Assembly (NCBI GenBank): GCA_015075425.1 | Contig: JABTUL010000004.1 | Span: forward strand, 124,001 to 188,000 | Direction: 5' to 3' | Length of the DNA: 64,000 bases | Source of the DNA: Spirochaetales bacterium | GTDB lineage: Bacteria > Spirochaetota > Leptospiria > Leptospirales > Leptonemataceae | Shown here: positions 31,671 through 43,632 of the stretch, piece by piece | How positions within the stretch are numbered: the first letter of the stretch is position 1 | Layout of the letters: each line of letters starts with the position of its first letter | Made by a program: the position numbers and the translations under genes | The notes under the pieces: model-generated | Told to the model about the DNA's origin: nothing | Databases searched by the model: none | What the model saw: the letters and a program-made list of their open reading frames with translations, nothing else

Positions 31671-32813
31671 CTAAACATACTCTCCTGCCCACAATCGATC
31701 CAAAAATTCCTGCCAGGGAACAACCTGAATTCCGTTGTTTAAGCGACGAGACTGCGGCTCAAGGGAAACCATAAGCATGGAACCAACCGGGCCATCTTCG
31801 CGCAGAGCCAGTAAACCGCGCAAGTCCCCCTCGTGAACGCGGGCTGATGCTTTGACTTCCACAGCCAGATCCTTCTGGCCCAGCAGAAAATCGACCTCCT
31901 GTCCCGAGCTCGTGCGCCAGAAAGCGATCGGAAGGTCGGGCTGTTTGTAGGCCTGGTAGGCCCTCAATTCCATCAGCATATAGTGCTCAAAGGATTTGCC
32001 AAAATCAGAATTTCCAGGTACGGGCTGGCGTCGGGCCAGATAATTGGCCACACCCACATCAAAAAAATAGAATTTTTCTGTTTGAATCATGCGACGGGAT
32101 TTGGCCTTCTTCCAGGCTTGCACTCGAAAACCCAGGTATGTATCTTCCAGAATATCAAAAAAGGTGCGTACGGTCTTATGAGACACACCACTTTCGCGGC
32201 CAACATTCACGTAATTCAGCAGTTCGCTTGAGGTCTGCGCGGCCACAGCCAGAAAACTGGAAAAGGCTGGAATATTTTGCACGAGAGCCTCTGCGGCCAC
32301 TTCCTCTTTAAGGTAGTCGGCAACATAGGCCCGCAGGTCTTCCCGGACATCGGGGGAAAGAAAATGGGGCGGCAAAAGGCCCGAAACCATGATGTCCTCC
32401 AGGTCAAAACCTTCCACCTCGTGATAGGAGAGCGGCAACATCAACCGCCTCCAGGCACGCCCTCCGAGCAAATTGGCCTGGCCACGCTTGAGTCGGCGGG
32501 CACTGGAGCCGGTGAGCAGAAAGGAGAGACCCGAATTCTCAATCAGCCAGTGTACCTCATCGAGTAAAGCAGGCACCTTCTGGACTTCATCGATTACGAT
32601 CAGTCCCTGATGCCCGGAAAAACGTTCTCTCAAGAGGGCTGGTCGCGTGGCATACTCAGCAAAGACGTCTGATTTAAGGAGATCAAGAATCGTCTGCGCG
32701 CCAAGGGTTTGCCTGATCCAATGGCTTTTCCCGACCTTACGCGGTCCCCAGAGGAAGGCTGATTTTCCCGGTGGAAGCTTGAGTTCGAGAAGCCTCCGGA
32801 TAATTTTCCTCAT
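31671..32813 (-). CDS. AAA ATPase with DUF4143 domain
   Basis: A 380-residue ATPase: Walker A GPRKVGKS near residue 23, Walker B LIVIDEVQ near 72, sensor FLLTGSSARRLKRG, then the DUF4143 region with a PD-(D/E)XK-like end (GQEVDFLLGQ ... LAVEVKAS). Family members are common mobile or accessory genes of unknown role. The end resembles the remnant at 5113-5361. Start ATG 32813 lies inside a tandem duplication (see repeats). Confidence 0.85.
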   Translation of the reverse strand: MRKIIRRLLELKLPPGKSAFLWGPRKVGKSHWIRQTLGAQTILDLLKSDVFAEYATRPALLRERFSGHQGLIVIDEVQKVPALLDEVHWLIENSGLSFLLTGSSARRLKRGQANLLGGRAWRRLMLPLSYHEVEGFDLEDIMVSGLLPPHFLSPDVREDLRAYVADYLKEEVAAEALVQNIPAFSSFLAVAAQTSSELLNYVNVGRESGVSHKTVRTFFDILEDTYLGFRVQAWKKAKSRRMIQTEKFYFFDVGVANYLARRQPVPGNSDFGKSFEHYMLMELRAYQAYKQPDLPIAFWRTSSGQEVDFLLGQKDLAVEVKASARVHEGDLRGLLALREDGPVGSMLMVSLEPQSRRLNNGIQVVPWQEFLDRLWAGEYV

Positions 32814-33392: not shown

Positions 33393-34529
33393 TCAGGCGG
33401 CCGACCGGCCCCATTGCAGGTCCCAAGATCCGTCGTAGAGCATCTGGCGGAGCCGGATAATAGCGGATGCGCCGTCGATGGTCCATTTCATTCCGGCCTG
33501 CTTGAGCCGGGATTGGACGAGGTACTTATGAGCGCTCTCGACCGCACCGCTCCCAATGAAGAATCCCATGCGGCGGAAATGCGGATAGCGCATCTTATCC
33601 AGGCGACTTTTGTAATAGTTGTGTAATTCAATGATTGGGGTCTGGACTCGGGGCCGGCGCTTGGCTTCGAAGAGTAGACGTTCGCAGACCGCTTCGGCCA
33701 TTCCGTTCCATAACATTTCTCGAAGTGGCTCCACCCATTCCCTGACGCTTGCGGTTTCATTCTCCCCGAAGATGGCTTTCCCGCAATTCCAGAGGTGTTC
33801 ACTTGCGTGGTACCAATCCAGAATGTGCACTGACCGGGGAAAAAGTCTTTCGCGCATATGGTCCAGCCAGTCCGCGCCATCGCTTATGAAGACGATCGTT
33901 TGCGCGCGCATGCTGCCGGCTTCCGCAGCCACTCGCTTCAGGAGTTGTGCGAAGTGCTCTACGCCCTTACCGATTGATGTTGCGAAGCGTTTTTTTGTAA
34001 TACGGCATATTTCTTTTCCTTTTGCAGACTTTCTCCTGATGATATCCTCTGTACGAAAAACAACTCCAACTTTTACCTCCTTGTACTCGGTTTTGAGCCG
34101 ATTTTCAGGGGTTTTTCCCCGAATCGGCACCATGCCACCGTCTGCCTGAACATAGAGAATTTCTGTCTTCTCAGCAGACACCGTACCGAACTCTTTGCTT
34201 CTGTATTCATCTGCAGCACAGAATGATGCTCCATACGCCTCGGCCGTTTCGCGCAGCATAGTCTCTGTGATATCGACTTTTTCAAAGCGTCCGAGATAAT
34301 GACGCGCCTGATCAAAGGGGACGGCTGCGCCCAACCAGCACAATAGCTCAGCAAATTTTCCTGACGCCGAATGAGGTGTCAGTCCGAGGATTTTCTCCAG
34401 TGGGAATTCTGTGCAGCGGCAGGATTTGTTAGTGCACGTATAATATGCACGATGAATTCCAATAACACCAGTTCGGCCCAGATTTAGTTTGCGCTCTCGA
34501 GTTCCCTGGAATTTCTGCGGGCTTCCGCA
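33393..34529 (-). CDS. IS transposase, main part (second frame)
   Basis: Catalytic part of an ISKra4-like transposase. It begins, in the frame entered after the A9 run, with CPECGSPQKF (zinc ribbon) and YTCTNKSCRC, then continues through the ATG 34343 frame. RNase-H-like motifs: YVQADGGMVP, 'TIVFISDGADWLDHM', ILDWYHASEHLW and 'GSGAVESAHKYLVQSRLKQA' with GMKWT near the C-terminus. No start codon with a ribosome-binding site exists before the zinc ribbon, so it is most likely made by frameshifting from the upstream ORF at 34531-34743. From ATG 34343 alone the zinc ribbon would be lost. Confidence 0.75.
   Translation of the reverse strand, partial: CGSPQKFQGTRERKLNLGRTGVIGIHRAYYTCTNKSCRCTEFPLEKILGLTPHSASGKFAELLCWLGAAVPFDQARHYLGRFEKVDITETMLRETAEAYGASFCAADEYRSKEFGTVSAEKTEILYVQADGGMVPIRGKTPENRLKTEYKEVKVGVVFRTEDIIRRKSAKGKEICRITKKRFATSIGKGVEHFAQLLKRVAAEAGSMRAQTIVFISDGADWLDHMRERLFPRSVHILDWYHASEHLWNCGKAIFGENETASVREWVEPLREMLWNGMAEAVCERLLFEAKRRPRVQTPIIELHNYYKSRLDKMRYPHFRRMGFFIGSGAVESAHKYLVQSRLKQAGMKWTIDGASAIIRLRQMLYDGSWDLQWGRSAA
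34521..34529 (-). other. Frameshift end point at start of second transposase frame
   Basis: First codons of the second frame (TGT CCT GAA), directly after the run of nine A on the minus strand (nine T at 34530-34538 region on the plus strand). The first ORF reads GAA AAA AAA ATG TCC TGA. Skipping one A gives TGT CCT GAA TGC, the zinc ribbon. Coordinates are approximate to a base or two. Confidence 0.45.
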
Positions 34530-34968: not shown

Positions 34969-35151
34969 ATGCCCAGAAGAGTGAAAAATTTTTGCGAATG
35001 TTCGACGATCTTCATTGCCGAAGGAGAGGCAACACTGTGTTCTGAGTGCACAAATTTTCCACACCTCCTTTTTTCCGCCATTGTTTTAACTTGTAGCGCC
35101 GATCCAGCATGCTCCCCTCTACGCGGAACCGGGATGCGGAGCTACGGATGA
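34969..35151 (+). CDS. Small Cys-rich (zinc-ribbon-like) leader protein of the sigma operon
   Basis: A 60-residue ORF with GGAGAGAG just before ATG 34969. It holds two close cysteine pairs, FCECST and LCSEC, spaced 13 residues apart, plus two cysteines later (LTCSADPAC), so metal binding is plausible. Its TGA overlaps the sigma factor ATG (ATGA at 35148-35151), which argues that it is translated and coupled. No similarity recognised. It could be a metal or redox sensor, or only a leader peptide. Confidence 0.5.
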   Translation: MPRRVKNFCECSTIFIAEGEATLCSECTNFPHLLFSAIVLTCSADPACSPLRGTGMRSYG

Positions 35152-35816
35152 AAAAAATTCAATCCTGGCAGATAGCTGCCATCCCCGCGACAGAATTCGA
35201 CCGCATGATCGCTGGCTGTCGCTCTGGCTCTGCCGCTGATCTGGAGCTTTTATTTCGTCTGTTTTATGGGTATCTTCTGAGGCAGTTGACATACGCGGTC
35301 AGGGATGGTGATATCGCTGAAGAAATTCTGCAGGATTTCTTTGTTCAGCTCATTGAATCCAGGCTCCTTACGAAATTCAGAGGCAGCAACATACTACAGC
35401 TAATGAAATTTCTTTCAAGCTGTGCCCGGAATCATTTACGGTCGCATTTTCGCGGAGCGGCCAAGGAATCTGCCCTGGATGATGAACTTTCAGTCGGAAT
35501 CAATACTAGCTGGCTACCGGAGAACTTGTACATCACTAAAGAAAATATTGGGATCATAGAGGAATGCTGCCGTGAGCTCCGCCTTTCCTGGCGCTCTATT
35601 TTGCACCTTGAGGGGGCTGGTTATAAGCACCGCGAAATTGCGGAGATATTGAATATGAAACAAAATACTGTTTCGGCAAATAGCAGCCGGGCGAAAAATA
35701 TGCTGAAAACGATGTTGCACAACAAAGGGATGCTTTTTCCGATGCTGGCGGTGCAGGTCGGTTTTTGGACTCAATTATTCAAACCAGCGCTCTTGCCGCT
35801 GGCCTGCGCCTTGTAG
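35148..35816 (+). CDS. Sigma-70 family (ECF-like) RNA polymerase sigma factor
   Basis: A 222-residue sigma factor. Region 2: ELLFRLFYGYLLRQLTYAVR ... 'DIAEEILQDFFVQLIESRLL' and 'FLSSCARNHLRSHFRG', matching the -10 binding helix. Region 4: 'SILHLEGAGYKHREIAEILN' then 'QNTVSANSSRAKNML', a helix-turn-helix. A hydrophobic tail of about 25 residues (LFPMLAVQVGFW...LACAL) is unusual. ATG 35148 is chosen for its GGAG at 35137-35140 and the ATGA overlap; an ATG at 35109 is in frame. The zinc anti-sigma and CHAT genes follow closely. Confidence 0.88.
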   Translation: MKKIQSWQIAAIPATEFDRMIAGCRSGSAADLELLFRLFYGYLLRQLTYAVRDGDIAEEILQDFFVQLIESRLLTKFRGSNILQLMKFLSSCARNHLRSHFRGAAKESALDDELSVGINTSWLPENLYITKENIGIIEECCRELRLSWRSILHLEGAGYKHREIAEILNMKQNTVSANSSRAKNMLKTMLHNKGMLFPMLAVQVGFWTQLFKPALLPLACAL

Positions 35817-35819
35817 GTC

Positions 35820-36428
35820 ATGCAACATCTGGATTATGAAACGCTCCAGCAAATCGTTATCGGCCGGGTCGATGCTGTAACGCTGTCCGGCTATGAAGCC
35901 CATTTAGAAGTCTGTCTGGAGTGCTTTGACGCCTTGATGGAGCTCCGCAAGCTCAATCATAGCCAGACGGTGCAGCCCGGGAGGGCATTTCTCAATGGCA
36001 TTTTTGGCCGCGCTGGCCTCGGAGGCCGGGTCCTCCTTGAATTAGCCATCCGAATCGACAAAGGTACGCTGCAGATAACAGGTTCCGAAGGAACGACTCT
36101 TTTGCCAGCAACGGTACCAAGTGCTTATGCCACGTTGGACAACAATGGGCGGCAATCAGCAGGCGCTTTCCTCATTTCAGGAGTCCGCTGTGTTCTCACA
36201 TGTATCAGGACACTGGATGCCACCAAAATCGGTTTTTCTTTTCCTTCCGGGTTTCCAGGGCCTGACGTTGCGATTGAGTGCGCAAAAGACGGCATTGCGC
36301 TTGAAGAGATTTTTCCCCTGAGCCAGTCTTTTTTTGAGATGGCCTTTGCTCCCGGGACTTATGAATTCAATCTGCGGATAGCTGATGCCACAGCCGCCAT
36401 CCTGCGTGTTGAGATCCAGGGGCTGTAG
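35820..36428 (+). CDS. Zinc-type anti-sigma factor (HxxxCxxC)
   Basis: A 202-residue protein beginning three bases after the sigma stop. Residues H28, C32 and C35 form AHLEVCLEC, the HxxxCxxC motif of zinc-binding anti-sigma domains. No convincing TM segment, so it should be soluble. The C-terminal 130 residues look like a beta-rich domain ('RVLLELAIRIDKGTLQI', 'YEFNLRIADATAAILRVEIQ') that may sense a signal or be the protease's substrate site. Assigned by motif and position; not recognised as a known full-length family. Confidence 0.78.
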   Translation: MQHLDYETLQQIVIGRVDAVTLSGYEAHLEVCLECFDALMELRKLNHSQTVQPGRAFLNGIFGRAGLGGRVLLELAIRIDKGTLQITGSEGTTLLPATVPSAYATLDNNGRQSAGAFLISGVRCVLTCIRTLDATKIGFSFPSGFPGPDVAIECAKDGIALEEIFPLSQSFFEMAFAPGTYEFNLRIADATAAILRVEIQGL

Positions 36429-36429
36429 T

Positions 36430-37833
36430 ATGGAAATAGTGCAAATGCATTTCCAGCCAGGGATCGATCAGAGTCTGCGGCTGACCGTTATGCGCAGATC
36501 TGTCCTCCTTCATGACCTGACCTTTAGCGTCGATTTCGAATGTCTACGCACAACTGCCAATGAAATTTTGATGCTGCTCGATCAGGGGCAGGCATTGAAT
36601 TCGTCCTCACCAAATGATCAGAGCCTTGTTGCACTGATCGATAAAGGAAAATATTTACAAACCCTTCTATTTGGTCGTTCAGGACAAGCGCTGGGTTTTA
36701 ACGAGAATATCCTTCTCGGGATTTATCTGCCAGCCGAGTTGACTTACATTCCTGTCGAGCTTTGTTATCAGGAAAATTTTTTATGTCTGAAACATCCAGT
36801 GGTACGGTTGCGACCCGGGGAGAGTTCGGATTGCATCAAACATTTGTTTACGTTTTATGGCTTCAATCCCGGGGCGGATCCGGAGTTGTACCGGGGGCTG
36901 GAATTCCGCTGCAAGGGCATTCAGAAGCGCCTGCAAAAACTGTCCCGTAATTTTCAGGCAAAGCACGGTGCGGTTTTTTCAAAGCAAATGTTCCTGGAAA
37001 AACTGGCCAGCCGCGATGTGGTTGTTATGACAGGCCATTGCGAAACCGGGCGCATTCCTTTTGGTCGAGAAGACCTGACCCGGGTCGACCTGACAGGGTT
37101 GAACTTTTCGGGGCTGTCCCTGTTTGTTAACAATTCCTGTTTTTCAGCGGACATCGTTCGCTCTGAACTCTTGCCCGTTTTTCTTGCGTCCGGCGTGCGC
37201 AACTACCTGGGTTATCTGTCTCGCGTACCCCAGGATGCGGCCCATGAATTCGTTCTTGATTTTTTGCGTGGGCTGAGCGCGGGACTCACGGCCCCCGTTG
37301 CTCTGCACGACGCACGCCGCAATAATTTCAGACAATTGCCAGGGTCACTCGTATGGGCCAATGGGCTGCTATGGGGGTCACTCGAGGCAAGGCTTACCCG
37401 GCCCGATCATGTCAGAAAACCGGCAAACTGGGCCTACATCAAAGCGGCGTCTGGCCTCTGCGCCGCCCTCGCCCTATCAGCTCTAATCAGGGCCTTCTGG
37501 GGTGGTGGAGAATTGGCCCCGGAGGCCACCAGTGAACTTGCCCCATTGCATTCAGCGGCCACTACGGAATTGGCAGCGCTGAGCGCAGGGAAGCGCCCCG
37601 CAGAACAGCACCGCACACCGCCCGGATTGGCCCGGCAGGGGGCCCGACCTCAACCCCAGGCCGCTCAGGCGCTGTCTGCCCCACCGGAACTTCAGGCCCT
37701 GATCCAGCAGTTCCGCGCGCGAGAACATCCGTTCTATGACGCAGAAGATAAGGAACGAGTGATCTTAAATATTCTGGCCCGCCCGGAAAATGATTCTCTG
37801 AAATCAAAACGGCTGCGAAATGAAATGCCATGA
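36430..37833 (+). CDS. CHAT-domain caspase-like protease with C-terminal membrane anchor
   Basis: A 467-residue protein from ATG 36430, one base after the anti-sigma stop; an upstream frame to 36385 lies inside that gene. The CHAT domain spans about 150-320: catalytic His in DVVVMTGHCETGRIPFG (H203), catalytic Cys in LSLFVNNSCFSADIV (C237), then 'FLASGVRNYLGYLSRVPQDA' and 'LVWANGLLWGS'. A single TM at about 336-357 with positive residues before it puts the protease in the cytoplasm and 110 Pro/Ala-rich residues outside. The N-terminal 130 residues are unrecognised. Likely acts on the neighbouring anti-sigma factor. Confidence 0.85.
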   Translation: MEIVQMHFQPGIDQSLRLTVMRRSVLLHDLTFSVDFECLRTTANEILMLLDQGQALNSSSPNDQSLVALIDKGKYLQTLLFGRSGQALGFNENILLGIYLPAELTYIPVELCYQENFLCLKHPVVRLRPGESSDCIKHLFTFYGFNPGADPELYRGLEFRCKGIQKRLQKLSRNFQAKHGAVFSKQMFLEKLASRDVVVMTGHCETGRIPFGREDLTRVDLTGLNFSGLSLFVNNSCFSADIVRSELLPVFLASGVRNYLGYLSRVPQDAAHEFVLDFLRGLSAGLTAPVALHDARRNNFRQLPGSLVWANGLLWGSLEARLTRPDHVRKPANWAYIKAASGLCAALALSALIRAFWGGGELAPEATSELAPLHSAATTELAALSAGKRPAEQHRTPPGLARQGARPQPQAAQALSAPPELQALIQQFRAREHPFYDAEDKERVILNILARPENDSLKSKRLRNEMP

Positions 37834-38666
37834 GAATCCAAATCCTGTTTGGCGTAATGCTCCTCCCAATTGGCACGATGCGCGCGGATGCATTCGAAGA
37901 TTACCACAGGGAAAAGCAGGCCTGCCCGGACAAGGCTTTCGTTCGAGAACTGGACGAATATATGGCCAACGTGCGGAACTACCAGTTGGGTCTCCGGCAT
38001 CTGGATTTGTGCCTGCAAGGCCAGATGGATAGTGTGCGAATCTGGACGGCGAATTTGCGCAAGACCAACGCAATGGTGCGCGACCATGTTCCCTTCATGG
38101 AACGCAGTATTGCCCGGTTGCCAGAAGGTGAACTAAAAACAAAGGTACGGTTTGTCTGGGAGCGCTGGAAACGTGTGCGCGCCAGTTTTCCTTTTCCGAA
38201 CGAACTCCAGAAGGTTAAGTTGGGCAGCGCCAGCCAGGATCTACGAGAAATCGTCACGCAGCAGGGCGGGTCGCAGAGCGTAAAACTGCATCGTCTTGAG
38301 AATGTAAACGATTTGTTGCGCCGTCTGGAAAATGAGGCAATTGCATCCGGTCTGCGGAAAAGGAGTCTGGATGAGCGGATCGAGTGCTTGCTCCACAGCG
38401 CGTACCTCGATCCAGCAACTAAAGAAAACTTGAAGGAGCTCCGGTTTTGTATCCGGAGCCTTGCGACGCAGGACGCTTTTTTTGGCGATAAGAACCTCGA
38501 TTTTTTCGAGGTTGGGCTGCCTGGGTGCCCGGGCCCTTCCGCCGCCAGGTGTGAGGAGGAGATGGAGCCTGCCCGTTGCAAGGAACTCATGAACATCCAC
38601 TCCGGCACAAAGGATCGCATTGCCTCGAATCTGGCCGATTGTCGCCACGCCCTTAAGTCTCTATAG
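37830..38666 (+). CDS. Secreted helical Cys-rich protein of the CHAT operon
   Basis: A 278-residue protein whose ATG overlaps the CHAT stop (ATGA). Signal peptide of about 20 residues (ILFGVMLLPIGTMRADA). The mature part is highly charged and helical, with cysteines at KQACPDK, LDLCLQG, ECLLHS, RFCIRS, PGCPGP, RCEEE, RCKEL and DCRHAL. Secretion to the periplasm with disulfides is likely. No family recognised. Tight coupling with the protease suggests it belongs to the same response or senses its signal. Confidence 0.65.
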   Translation: MRIQILFGVMLLPIGTMRADAFEDYHREKQACPDKAFVRELDEYMANVRNYQLGLRHLDLCLQGQMDSVRIWTANLRKTNAMVRDHVPFMERSIARLPEGELKTKVRFVWERWKRVRASFPFPNELQKVKLGSASQDLREIVTQQGGSQSVKLHRLENVNDLLRRLENEAIASGLRKRSLDERIECLLHSAYLDPATKENLKELRFCIRSLATQDAFFGDKNLDFFEVGLPGCPGPSAARCEEEMEPARCKELMNIHSGTKDRIASNLADCRHALKSL

Positions 38667-38784: not shown

Positions 38785-39492
38785 GTGGTGTTTATTGTAC
38801 GGATTGTGTGCGCTTGTGCGCTGGCCCTTTCTACGGCCTCTTGTATTTCCCTGAAGCTCATACTGGCCAAACAGGGCTACGGTGTTCTCACTGAGGATGA
38901 GGTGAAAGAATTGTCTTTAAAGGTGCCCTGGATTTACAAGGACACCCTGTATTCCCAGGGCGAGCCCATTGGGAAGGCGACCGAAGAGTCAGAAGAATAC
39001 GGTGTAAGCCTCAAGGATCTAAAAGATGGGCAAATCAATTTTTCGCGCCGGGTCAAGCTGGTGACCGAATGGAAACAAAAACACCGGGACAAATATCAGG
39101 AATTCCGCAATATGGCGCAGGATGGTCGCGCCCCGGCGCACTCATGTACTGGCGTTGCCCTGCGCTCGCCCGAGTTACCGATTTCGGCGAGCACGGCTTA
39201 CCAGGTTTCCGATCTGTCCGGCAATCTCCAGTTTGAATTGATCGATATAGTCATCGTCACACGAACGGCCTGTGAAGACGTGCCGGCTGGCTATGGTGAG
39301 GCTCTGAAGGCCGCGCAGAGGCAAGAGGCGAGGAAAGAGCGCAAAGAGGTAATGAAAGAATACAAGACGGCCTGGTATGTCAAAAGGGGACAGACCTGGA
39401 GTGAAATTGTAAGTATCAACCAAGAAAAGCTTGCGAAGGTGGAAGCGCTGTCCGTCGCAACGCAACTGGTCCTTATTGATCGGAAACTGTAA
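38785..39492 (+). CDS. Lipoprotein of unknown function
   Basis: A 235-residue lipoprotein from GTG 38785, with AGGAG at 38774-38778. The frame is open back to 38620 but that part lacks a start with a ribosome-binding site. Lipobox LALSTASC. The body has no motif I recognise; it contains basic helices ('QRQEARKERKEVMKEYKTAW') and a LysM-like phrase 'WYVKRGQTWSEIVSINQEKL', which is short but suggests a C-terminal peptidoglycan-binding remnant. Confidence 0.6.
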   Translation: MVFIVRIVCACALALSTASCISLKLILAKQGYGVLTEDEVKELSLKVPWIYKDTLYSQGEPIGKATEESEEYGVSLKDLKDGQINFSRRVKLVTEWKQKHRDKYQEFRNMAQDGRAPAHSCTGVALRSPELPISASTAYQVSDLSGNLQFELIDIVIVTRTACEDVPAGYGEALKAAQRQEARKERKEVMKEYKTAWYVKRGQTWSEIVSINQEKLAKVEALSVATQLVLIDRKL

Positions 39493-39558: not shown

Positions 39559-40167
39559 ATGGTTGTAATTCGTAAACGGTTACTTCGGTTGGCCATTCTC
39601 AGCTTCTTGATTCAATCCACCAGCGGTTGCCTGAATATGCAAAAATTGCATAAAGGCTTGCAATCGGCGCAGACAATCGAAATTGTCTATGCGAACGGTG
39701 GGATGCGCCGCGGTCGATTTGATCCGCCGGAGCGACCTTTGGAGGAAAACTATGTCCATGTAAAGGACATCGCACAGGAAATATTGGCCAGCCACTTCCC
39801 GGGAGCGCGAATTCAGACGGGCCGCTTGAGCGAGATCGCCCAGACCTCGGGTCGTGTCTTCTATAAAAATGCAGATGGCGTATTCGTGCATGGCCCTTTT
39901 GCGGAATGGGTGGCGCGGGATAGCGATGCTGACGTCGTTGTGCTGCTTTTCGTCTACACTTATGATGCGAATCCTCCTCCTGGAATTCTCACAGAGGCGG
40001 ACGCCCATTTCGTTCTCTCCGGATCCAAGTTGGGCGAAAAAACTGTCGCGCGCTTGGGGTCGCGTGATAGCCGCCGCATCAATAAAGAGCATTCAGCCGC
40101 TTTTCTGGAAAAATTTCGAGCCAATTTCCAGAGATTTGCCCAAGAAGTAGTAAACAGTGGCCAGTGA
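39559..40167 (+). CDS. Lipoprotein of unknown function
   Basis: A 202-residue protein with signal peptide 'LLRLAILSFLIQSTSGC' (lipobox SGC at Cys24). The mature sequence (IEIVYANGG, 'FHPGAR'-like turns, 'ADVVVLLFVYTYD') reads as an alpha/beta domain. It resembles small DUF4136- or GNA1162-like envelope lipoproteins only vaguely. Preceded by CGGAGGG 12 bases before ATG. Overlaps the next gene by 11 bases. Confidence 0.6.
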   Translation: MVVIRKRLLRLAILSFLIQSTSGCLNMQKLHKGLQSAQTIEIVYANGGMRRGRFDPPERPLEENYVHVKDIAQEILASHFPGARIQTGRLSEIAQTSGRVFYKNADGVFVHGPFAEWVARDSDADVVVLLFVYTYDANPPPGILTEADAHFVLSGSKLGEKTVARLGSRDSRRINKEHSAAFLEKFRANFQRFAQEVVNSGQ

Positions 40168-40966
40168 ATCTGGATCCCAGTCGATCCGCAGACGGGGGAG
40201 CATTCTCGCACCCGTTATCCTTGCAGCCTCTATGATCGGCCTACCAGCCGCGTATAGTGCACAGCCCCCACCGTGCAACTCTATCTCCTATTATTGCAAT
40301 GTTCCCGAACACGATATGTGCATGGAATTCTGCGCGCCCGTGCCGTTGAACTGGGCCGCTCGAGAGTGCAAGGCGCAGAAGGGGTTTCGGATCTACAATC
40401 GGTGCGCCTCCAAATCCCGAGCCGGTATCTGTTTGTTTCCAGGGCCTGGAAACGCATTCAGCTATCTGGTATCATTTTATCGGACTGCGGCTGCGGGAGA
40501 TGACTATAACGAGGAAAGAATTAAATACTGCCGATCCGCAGGCGGCAGCTTTACGCGCCAGGAAGATCCCGGCTCTGGAGAGCTGAATTCAAGTGTGGCC
40601 GTTCAGTGCTCGTCCCGGTTGGTTAAGTGTGTGCACTACTGTCATCAGCTGCGCGATTCCCGCGACATGGATGCCTGCAAGAGCAATTGCAATGATGAGA
40701 GCTTCAAATGTATGAATCTGGAGCATGCGCACCGGGTAGGCAAAGGGCATTTTCTGGTGCGGGTTCTTTACAAACTGCCCCCGCTGGGTCGGGGGATATG
40801 CGTTGCAGTGGAACGCACAGCTGCTGTCCATCAACGGTATGCCTTCTGCACGGACCATGCCGAGATTAGCCCGATGTTGTTAGCATCTGCTGGCGGGGCT
40901 GGCCTGTGGTGTCTGATCTCGGATGGAAAAGAAGCATCCATCGCAGACAAAGCCCTATGTGAATGA
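40157..40966 (+). CDS. Secreted Cys-rich protein
   Basis: A 269-residue protein from GTG 40157, overlapping the previous stop. Signal peptide ends near 'AAYSAQPPPC'. The mature part has about 20 cysteines, e.g. YYCNVPEHDMCMEFC, VKCVHYCHQLRD and ACKSNCNDESFKC. The spacing suggests multiple disulfides or metal sites. No known family. Together with the 37830 gene it gives this region two unusual Cys-rich exported proteins. Confidence 0.6.
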   Translation: MASESGSQSIRRRGSILAPVILAASMIGLPAAYSAQPPPCNSISYYCNVPEHDMCMEFCAPVPLNWAARECKAQKGFRIYNRCASKSRAGICLFPGPGNAFSYLVSFYRTAAAGDDYNEERIKYCRSAGGSFTRQEDPGSGELNSSVAVQCSSRLVKCVHYCHQLRDSRDMDACKSNCNDESFKCMNLEHAHRVGKGHFLVRVLYKLPPLGRGICVAVERTAAVHQRYAFCTDHAEISPMLLASAGGAGLWCLISDGKEASIADKALCE

Positions 40967-41268: not shown

Positions 41269-43632
41269 ATGCCTTCAATTCCATATTCTTTCTTGACCGC
41301 ATATGGAGGTAACCTTTCTATTTCGTCTATGGATGAAAAGCGCCAACTATCGGCCATCATGTTTTCAGATATAGTTGGGTATTCCAAAATGATGAGCCTC
41401 AATGAATCGCGCACCATCCGCCTACTGACCGAGCATGATCGCATTCTGAGCCAGGCAATCGCGCAAGGCCACGGGCGATTGCTTAAAAAAATGGGTGATG
41501 GAGTACTCGCAGCCTTCGAGAGCGCTGCCGATGCCGTTTCTGCGGCTCTGGTGGTCCAGAGAACCATATCTGAGCGAAATCTGGTCCAGCCCGCCGAAGA
41601 ACATTTTCAGGTGCGGATTGGTATTCACATTGGAGATGTGCTCCTGAGAGGAGACGACATTTTTGGCGACGGTGTCAATATTGCTGCGCGCATTGAGCCT
41701 CTGGCTGAACCGGGAGGCATTTGCATTTCACAAACCGTCTACGATATGGTCAAGGCCCGTCCAGAAATACAGACCACCCTTCTGGGTGCGCGTGAACTCA
41801 AAAACATCAAGGACAAAGTCAATATATATAAAGTCCTGATTCAGGCCGAAGAAGCAACAGCACCGCAGTTGGCCCCTCCCCCGAAAAGGGAGCGGCCCTA
41901 TTTCCTGATAGCGATCATGGTTTCTCTCTTTATAGCCCTGCCACTGCTTGCTATCCTGGTATACAATGTATCGGGCTCCGAGGACACGGCCGCGACTGAG
42001 CAGAAGACCTTGCAGGTGCTCATCGCTCCTTTCCATGGCCTTGATGAGGCAGAAAGCAAATCCGGGAAGCTTGTACAACTCCGGCTGGAAGAGGCTCTGG
42101 CGGCGCATATAGGACGAGCCCAGGGCGTCCAGATTTCAACCCCGACCGTCACGGCACCGCGGACGGCAGAAGAAGCCCGCAGGCTGGGTCAGGAGAGCGC
42201 CGCTCAATTTGTAATCTGGGGCCTGGTCCAGAAAACCGGGGATGTCCTTGAGATCCGGCCGCGCATTGAGTTCCTGCGCCGCCCCGGATTCCGGGTCGGG
42301 AGCATGTACGGGAAGGACACCATGCAGATCGCCCCGCTACGCTTGCCGGCTGATTTGCCCGATGCTCACCAGTTGGGCAGTCTGGCTCTGCACGTAGCTT
42401 CGGCTTATTTCTACCGCTACGACCCGGAAAAGGCTTTACAGTTGAATCTTGCCATTGAACCGGCAGATGCGGCCGTCCTTGAGATGCGCACCTATCTGCT
42501 CTGGAATAATGGTCGTGAGGAGCAGGCAGCTCAAACGATTGAGGAGGCCTTGAAACGCTTTCCGGGGGAACTGCACGTGGCCCTCGCGGGAGCCGATTTC
42601 TACTATGAAACGGGCCGCTCGAAAGACCGGGCCCGCGCCCTTTTGAAACAGGCCCAAAACCTGGATCCAAATTCGATTCGTGTGAATGATTATTGGTGCT
42701 ACTTCTTGATCACAGAAGGGCAAGCGGAGCAGGCACTTCCCTTTTGTGCTCGTGTGGGCGAGCTCGAACCCAATAATGCTCTGGGTCCTCAGGCACTGAG
42801 TCGCTACTACGTCGCGACAGGGAACTACGCGCAAGCCATTGAGGCTGCTGACAGAGCATTTACTCAGGATCCTGAAGGGTCCTACCGTGACCTACGGCAG
42901 GCTTATTCGGCTGCTGGACGCTATGAAGAACTCGCGGATAAATTGACGGCTCTTTTGGAAAAGGATGTGGATCGCGCAGATATTCTACAACATTTAGGGT
43001 ACGCGCAGACGGAAAGCGGTGATACGGACTCCGCGCGGAAGTCTTACGAAAGGGCCCTTGCCCTGAATCCGCGCGCCAGCACCGTATGGATGCTACTCGG
43101 GCAACTTGATTTACGAACAGGCAATTTCTCTGAGGCGCGGCGGAAATTTGAAGAATATAGTAAGTTAAGACCTCTTCAGGGAACCGGTGACGGCTACGTC
43201 GGCTGGACTTACTATTTAGAAGGTGAGTACGCCCGGGCCCTGGAAGAGATAAGGAAGGCACGTGTTAGGGAGCCGGCCTATCCCGATTGGATTTTTTATG
43301 AATATCTTGCGACGTGGCGCAAAGACGGCAGGGATGTAGCCGATCGCATCCTTCGCGATCCGAATAACACAGTTCCAGTCCGCGAGGATCCGGAACTTGG
43401 ATACCTGGCTGGCCGCATTGATGAGGCCGTCTACCGCGCAGAACGCCTCAAGGGCAGTCCCACCGCGATCAGAGTATGGGAGGCTGTCCTCGAATACACT
43501 ATGGGAATCCGGGCTTTGCGGGACGGAGAAAAAGAGGCAGCAACCGCCCACTTCCAGAAAGCTATAGCTGCAGGAAAGGTGGGCGATTGGGGAAGAATCA
43601 TGGCAGAAGTTGAAATTTCAAGAATAAAATAA
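41269..43632 (+). CDS. Class III adenylate/guanylate cyclase with TPR domain
   Basis: A 787-residue protein. Cyclase catalytic domain at about 28-195: metal-binding Asp in FSDIVGYS (D34) and KKMGDG (D77), the transition-state Asn and Arg in GDGVNIAARIEP (N137, R141). One TM at about 207-230 ('YFLIAIMVSLFIALPLLAIL'), then a TolB-like stretch ('LQVLIAPFHGLDEAESKSG') and TPR repeats to the end. Same architecture as TPR-linked rhizobial and leptospiral cyclases. ATG 41269 is listed; ATG 41329 (MDEKRQLSA) is possible, and a GGAGGT at 41305 fits neither well. Product cAMP is likely; specificity not proven. Confidence 0.85.
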   Translation: MPSIPYSFLTAYGGNLSISSMDEKRQLSAIMFSDIVGYSKMMSLNESRTIRLLTEHDRILSQAIAQGHGRLLKKMGDGVLAAFESAADAVSAALVVQRTISERNLVQPAEEHFQVRIGIHIGDVLLRGDDIFGDGVNIAARIEPLAEPGGICISQTVYDMVKARPEIQTTLLGARELKNIKDKVNIYKVLIQAEEATAPQLAPPPKRERPYFLIAIMVSLFIALPLLAILVYNVSGSEDTAATEQKTLQVLIAPFHGLDEAESKSGKLVQLRLEEALAAHIGRAQGVQISTPTVTAPRTAEEARRLGQESAAQFVIWGLVQKTGDVLEIRPRIEFLRRPGFRVGSMYGKDTMQIAPLRLPADLPDAHQLGSLALHVASAYFYRYDPEKALQLNLAIEPADAAVLEMRTYLLWNNGREEQAAQTIEEALKRFPGELHVALAGADFYYETGRSKDRARALLKQAQNLDPNSIRVNDYWCYFLITEGQAEQALPFCARVGELEPNNALGPQALSRYYVATGNYAQAIEAADRAFTQDPEGSYRDLRQAYSAAGRYEELADKLTALLEKDVDRADILQHLGYAQTESGDTDSARKSYERALALNPRASTVWMLLGQLDLRTGNFSEARRKFEEYSKLRPLQGTGDGYVGWTYYLEGEYARALEEIRKARVREPAYPDWIFYEYLATWRKDGRDVADRILRDPNNTVPVREDPELGYLAGRIDEAVYRAERLKGSPTAIRVWEAVLEYTMGIRALRDGEKEAATAHFQKAIAAGKVGDWGRIMAEVEISRIK

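Follow-up and report, generated by a model that had tools for sequence, protein, structure and literature searches.

The stretch of Spirochaetales DNA examined here (the window; 64,000 nucleotides, G000:C4:124001-188000, from genome G000 of 4.13 Mb in four contigs) carries closely packed genes for a sigma factor of the extracytoplasmic function (ECF) type, an anti-sigma-like protein, a membrane-tethered CHAT protease and a secreted cysteine-rich protein. Sequence comparison supports the view that these four are conserved as one module across several lineages of spirochaetes, with no part taken from clustered regularly interspaced short palindromic repeat (CRISPR) systems. The module makes a good candidate envelope alarm, one that would act by cleavage of an inhibitor, as in some CRISPR systems, without CRISPR. 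CHAT proteases that free sigma factors have so far been known from CRISPR immunity; if the proposed reading is true, a conserved CRISPR-free module would make the protease/anti-sigma/sigma triad a general signalling design, provide an orphan CHAT family with a natural candidate substrate, and add a route of regulated proteolysis whose protease is itself the membrane-spanning component and carries a swappable extracytoplasmic part. As the parts are few and small, reconstruction in E. coli is feasible.

The genes run on the + strand in the order ECF sigma factor, anti-sigma-like protein, CHAT protease and secreted protein at spacings of +3, +1 and -4 bases, so that three bases follow the sigma gene, one base follows the anti-sigma gene, and CHAT and the secreted gene share the four bases ATGA. 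This packing had been described in a first-pass annotation of the same DNA and has been confirmed in the sequence. The start of the locus had been placed at 34969; this position has been found to begin a short cysteine-rich frame instead, and the sigma factor, whose longest frame opens at 35109, has its probable start codon (ATG) at 35148, because GGAG lies six bases upstream and the end of the short frame overlaps this start by ATGA. The features of the module are as follows.

34969..35151, + strand: putative cysteine-rich reading frame, 60 amino acids, 6 cysteines (from the sequence; GGAGAGAG upstream)
35148..35816, + strand: ECF sigma factor, 222 amino acids, hydrophobic C-terminal tail (TIGR02937, profile A4)
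35820..36428, + strand: soluble zinc-type anti-sigma-like protein (zf-HC2 match of the homologue L077, weak RsiW profile match, AlphaFold2 model, Foldseek)
36430..37833, + strand: CHAT protease, 467 amino acids, with one predicted transmembrane helix and an extracytoplasmic tail (PF12770, AlphaFold2 model, Foldseek)
37036..37038, + strand: codon (CAT) of the predicted catalytic His203 (sequence, alignment)
37138..37140, + strand: codon (TGT) of the predicted catalytic Cys237 (sequence; invariant in 11 homologues)
37432..37488, + strand: predicted transmembrane core, residues 335-353, N-side inside by the positive-inside rule (model, sequence)
37675..37830, + strand: conserved, predicted extracytoplasmic tail of CHAT, residues 416-467, three helices (predicted local distance difference test, pLDDT, about 86-93)
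37830..38666, + strand: putative secreted cysteine-rich partner, 278 amino acids, 8 cysteines (sequence; weak homology to secreted partners elsewhere)

The association has been followed with a profile of the membrane-tethered CHAT (CHAT-TM) in samples of the class (48 genomes) and the phylum (393 genomes), and with an anti-sigma profile in the phylum sample; the sequences are few and diverged, and the contig ends of metagenome-assembled genomes (MAGs) hide some neighbours. Strong CHAT-TM matches have been found in eight genomes, all within the class, and a related sigma gene adjoins CHAT at eight of 11 readable loci (six genomes, four families, one class), namely the window, G025:C16, G022, G044:C112, G045:C225, G045:C58, G044:C341 and G041:C50. 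The first-pass annotation, which had staked its reading on such linkage in other genomes, is borne out on this point. At G044:C341 the N-terminus of the sigma stands at the contig end, and a sigma lacking its N-terminus stands at the end of contig C329; at G041:C50 CHAT and sigma overlap by ATGA before the contig ends, and G041:C291 has been left out as unreadable, its contig ending inside CHAT. No sigma gene has been seen beside CHAT-TM at G025:C135, G033 and G047, the last of which has a CHAT that breaks off before the catalytic cysteine, and no anti-sigma. The sigma pair comes first in G000 and G025 (sigma, anti-sigma, CHAT, secreted), and CHAT comes first in G022, G044:C112 and G045:C225 (CHAT, secreted, sigma, anti-sigma) as well as in G045:C58 and, by extrapolation, G044:C341 (CHAT, sigma, anti-sigma). 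As the order is permuted while the membership is constant, the sub-units of CHAT with secreted protein and of sigma with anti-sigma are therefore kept together whatever their arrangement. Copy numbers of CHAT and anti-sigma are equal in all five genomes that hold both (1/1, 1/1, 2/2, 2/2, 2/2), with the second pair of G025 split over separate contigs, and the two co-occur with p = 1.8e-4 in the class and p = 1.5e-8 in the phylum sample, kinship being ignored in both values.

A scan of name-bearing genomes, which finds close relatives only, has returned four loci, all of them already contained in the CHAT-TM profile search, and a search of plasmids has given no match; the relatives named by the scan as carriers of module genes are a Turneriella sp. 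(Leptospiria, Spirochaetota) and Spirochaetes MAGs. A chance neighbourhood has been ruled out, since by our own estimate, which allows for some 20 sigma candidates in 4 Mb, a sigma gene is expected within 2 kb of a given CHAT in ~2% of cases, compared with the 8/11 observed. For comparison within these genomes, 13 further CHAT loci serve as controls and show no ECF sigma in the fetched flanks, which rules out sigma linkage as a general property of CHAT genes. Several of these control genes adjoin ruvC/ruvA (named by eye); L024, L025, L027 and L036 form a separate CHAT family of about 590 amino acids that is kept in the class beside yebC-, ruvC- and ruvA-like genes.

Toxin-antitoxin-like pairs (Phd/VapC-like and RelB/ParE-like, by eye; L059 8144-8832 and L058 8858-9831) lie between CHAT/secreted and sigma in both modules of G045, and decayed CHAT-TM remnants lie near intact modules of G045 and G022. 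From these remnants and the broken CHAT of G047 (together L058 2087-2680, L026 1889-2131 and L062 5883-6608), the module seems to duplicate and decay. Such insertions and remnants mark the loci as mobile or duplicating, and the genes might accordingly be mere neighbours, moved or retained jointly but with no action of one on another; this is highly improbable, given that membership is kept despite the permuted order, that copy numbers are equal even across contigs, and that other CHATs have no such linkage.

The first protein has been identified by both of its defining regions, sigma2 and sigma4, as an ECF (group IV) sigma factor: it scores 53.7 bits with the NCBIfam sigma70-ECF model TIGR02937 (cut-off 42.9), as the first-pass assignment to an ECF-like sigma would have it, and its family profile (A4) aligns with E. 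coli sigma-E at E 5.7e-20 over positions 13-189. Its hydrophobic C-terminal stretch (35730-35816, GMLFPMLAVQVGFWTQLFKPALLPLACAL) might touch the membrane; a stretch of similar character is present in the sigma of G005 and not in the other module sigmas.

The second protein has no match in a Pfam/NCBIfam library search, and its assignment has been built from relatives and structure. The homologue L077 exceeds the cut-off of zf-HC2 PF13490 (30.5 vs 22.2 bits) and the homologue L058 stays below it, the family profile aligns weakly with the anti-sigma domain of RsiW (E 0.36), and weak matches to RsrA have been obtained with two homologues, of which one also weakly matches ChrR. The AlphaFold2 model contains four N-terminal helices with pLDDT about 90 for most of them, followed by a C-terminal half that is modelled, at lower confidence, as an Ig/FnIII-like beta sandwich (AlphaFold2, Foldseek). 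An additional beta domain at the C-terminus is also known from ChrR, a soluble anti-sigma that contains zinc. We infer from the modelled fold and the gene coupling that the protein would bind the sigma factor. The anti-sigma helices (residues 6-64) go together with H3, H28, C32 and C35, of which the last three make up the HxxxCxxC motif, and sequence analysis has found no transmembrane segment in the window protein; what the first-pass annotation had called an HxxxCxxC anti-sigma without membrane anchor therefore stands for the window, while the motif is not general, all four residues being kept in four of ten homologues and all lost in the other six. Accordingly, the zinc site appears useful yet dispensable, and its loss in 6/10 has ruled it out as a universal sensor.

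In the third protein, Pfam finds the CHAT domain (PF12770, 32 bits, cut-off 24) and no TPR domain. Gly202, Asn235, Cys237 and Ser239 are invariant in an alignment of 11 homologues, and His203 is kept in ten of them, with Tyr in G041:C50. The AlphaFold2 model, built from 11 sequences at a mean pLDDT of 68, places the CHAT domain up to about residue 320, a hydrophobic helix at 334-357, a disordered linker at 359-418 and a three-helix tail at 419-465. A PDB sequence search has given nothing useful, so that the fold search alone is informative: with Foldseek the best PDB match of the model is Csx29 (8eey_B, 1.4e-10), followed by separases and then by DdvA (8rw5, 8.6e-7) and SAVED-CHAT. By its modelled fold and its His/Cys dyad, the window protein is a CHAT cysteine protease (clan CD). 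From the positive charges that precede the transmembrane helix, the CHAT domain is expected in the cytoplasm and the tail on the outer side. The earlier description of a CHAT protease with His203/Cys237 and a C-terminal transmembrane segment agrees with the PF12770 match, the codons as read and the helix at residues 334-357, and its proposed membrane tether and likeness to Csx29 find support in this topology and in the fold search.

The outer part of the protease varies together with the fourth gene, whose product in the window has no library match. A profile of the last 52 residues detects the tail in six CHATs (window, L021, L056, L058, L023, L026), all six of which are adjoined by a secreted-protein gene, and the tail is missing in all three CHATs without a secreted gene (L057, L059, L061), one of which has an NADase-type glycan-binding domain in its place (NF047619, 1.5e-34). 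At L022 the secreted gene is present and the tail undetectable. The ATGA overlap of CHAT and secreted gene recurs at five of seven loci, and the secreted proteins themselves show weak homology only (hhalign 0.0035 for the window against A9, 0.094 between groups). The co-occurrence of tail and secreted gene, together with the glycan-binding swap, supports a role of the outer part as an exchangeable sensor and of the secreted protein as the partner of the tail. In G033 (L021 5366-5644; genome 99% complete) the secreted partner is shrunk to 92 amino acids, with an intact CHAT and no matching anti-sigma.

Sequence analysis has established the genes, their conserved association, the copy-number match, the topology and the folds, and it is for the binding partners, the activating signal, the cut of the anti-sigma and the targets of the sigma that we infer a mechanism. 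In its sensor half, CHAT would be anchored in the inner membrane with a cytoplasmic catalytic domain and a small helical tail outside, where the tail would meet the secreted product of the overlapping gene. In the responder half, the ECF sigma would be kept inactive by the soluble, sometimes zinc-containing anti-sigma with its Ig-like C-terminal domain. Tail and secreted partner would sense a change in the envelope and thereby activate the CHAT domain, which would cut the anti-sigma and so release the sigma for transcription, probably of the module itself and of the downstream secreted proteins. A cut of the anti-sigma by CHAT is the most economical reading, with Csx29/Csx30 and CalpL/CalpT as precedents. 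To the whole chain, from envelope event to freed sigma, we give about an even chance.

Several results weigh against this chain. The anti-sigma alignment shows no evident conserved cut site, and a search for a promoter motif shared upstream of the modules has given nothing convincing, the sequences being few and diverged. Some sigma/anti-sigma pairs of this family have no CHAT as a neighbour (G005, G139, G025:C9, G041:C275), and in the sigma tree the window sigma groups with the CHAT-unlinked sigma of G005 (support 0.86), from which it follows that such a pair can exist without CHAT. Furthermore, the CHAT of G041:C50 is linked to a sigma although Tyr replaces its catalytic His. As this CHAT retains the Cys, and as the hydrophobic tail of the window sigma could reach the membrane, CHAT might act without proteolysis, by binding anti-sigma or sigma at the membrane and releasing it on engagement of the tail (partner switching or tethering). 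Since the other ten homologues in the alignment, at roughly 20% identity, retain both His and Cys, we regard this as distinctly unlikely. The pairs without CHAT also bear on the direction of control. CHAT proteases serve as executors in other settings, and CHAT with its secreted protein could be the output, switched on by a sigma that another signal (e.g., redox or zinc at H-H-C-C) has freed, and CHAT would then cut other proteins as a stress or death executor; the single operon of the window and the zinc site in four of ten anti-sigmas would fit. Its absence from the other six keeps this site from being a common sensor, the variation among the extracytoplasmic parts of CHAT resembles that of sensor domains, and CHAT and anti-sigma are equal in copy number, so that we consider an output role unlikely, though deserving a real share of the probability.

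Regarding known systems, the proposed activation of the sigma by a CHAT protease is most closely paralleled in type III-E CRISPR (Craspase), in which the CHAT protease Csx29 cuts the sigma inhibitor Csx30 and relieves CASP-sigma (PMC10028731); a search of the open-access literature on CHAT domains with sigma and anti-sigma factors has returned the Craspase paper only. Both loci combine a CHAT protease, a sigma inhibitor and an ECF sigma, and Csx29 is the best structural match of the window CHAT. However, the window module has neither Cas7-11 nor CRISPR RNA, its CHAT lacks TPR and has instead a membrane tether, an extracytoplasmic tail and a secreted partner, and no relation to Csx30 has been detected for its anti-sigma, a small zf-HC2-like/Ig protein whose cut is proposed here by analogy. 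Scans of the window proteins against libraries have found no cas genes around the module, including Cas7-11, in line with the earlier claim of a unit without CRISPR part, and the window sigma scores 24.8 bits with the CASP-sigma model NF041236 (cut-off 100). Membership in type III-E has been ruled out on the lack of Cas7-11 and TPR, on this score, and on the type of the genome's own cas locus, which is I-E. The latter lies 45 kb from the module and outside the window (L102, G000:C4:204900-214300; Cas3, Cse1, Cse2, Cas7, Cas5, Cas6, Cas1, Cas2).

A protease/anti-sigma/ECF sigma triad is likewise formed by CalpL, CalpT and CalpS of type III CRISPR, in which CalpL cuts CalpT (PMC11417357), but CalpL is a Lon-SAVED protease activated inside the cell by cyclic tetra-adenylate (cA4), whereas the window has a membrane CHAT without SAVED. 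Without CRISPR, DdvA of Myxococcus xanthus regulates an ECF sigma, DdvS (PDB 8rot, 8rw5; PMC4374960), as a transmembrane regulator with a CHAT-like fold (Foldseek 8.6e-7); it unites this fold and the anti-sigma in one membrane protein, whereas the window has separate genes for CHAT and a soluble anti-sigma. ECF54 sigma factors have CHAT-domain genes nearby and no anti-sigma, and proteolysis of the sigma has been proposed for them (PMC8999054). The likeness lies in the ECF sigma adjoining CHAT genes and in the proposed proteolysis. One may thus consider that the window CHAT degrades the sigma itself and is a negative regulator, as others have proposed from the CHAT, subtilase and carboxypeptidase genes beside ECF54 (PMC8999054). 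In the module, however, an anti-sigma gene is coupled to the sigma and equals CHAT in copy number, whereas the ECF54 groups have no anti-sigma; we judge degradation of the sigma to be very unlikely. Cleavage of the anti-sigma has a further parallel in the DegS/RseP-RseA-sigma-E pathway, which also couples an envelope signal to anti-sigma proteolysis; there RseA is itself a membrane protein, cut by serine and metalloproteases, whereas here the protease is proposed as the membrane sensor.

Csx29/Csx30/CASP-sigma, CalpL/T/S, DdvA and ECF54 narrow the novelty of the module, and the triad idea is less isolated than the first-pass annotation had held, as DdvA and CHAT genes beside ECF54 were already known. 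The module would work like the CRISPR triads, yet it is not one of them. With somewhat less than even confidence, we tentatively see in it an equivalent of Craspase signalling outside CRISPR. The sigma would be switched across the membrane in one step, with the protease as membrane sensor in place of the anti-sigma, and the module would possibly be an ancestor or relative of the sigma modules that type III CRISPR systems have captured. The defence role that had been suggested alongside a stress role has found no backing, as none of the four module proteins matches a defence model of PADLOC-DB 2.0.0 at E 0.01.

The operon probably extends through the following lipoprotein and secreted genes to 40966.

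38785..39492, + strand: predicted lipoprotein, STASC lipobox, start codon uncertain (sequence; no family match)
39559..40167, + strand: predicted lipoprotein, STSGC lipobox (sequence; no family match)
40157..40966, + strand: predicted secreted cysteine-rich protein, 18 cysteines, overlapping the gene before (sequence; no family match)

Close upstream of the sigma operon, an AAA_14/DUF4143 ATPase on the other strand (31671-32813) matches the PADLOC candidate PDC-S01 (1.1e-55), and a UPF0236-like transposase fragment (33393-34343) lies between this ATPase and the operon. Downstream of the secreted genes, 41269-43632 encodes an adenylate/guanylate cyclase domain protein with TPR repeats.

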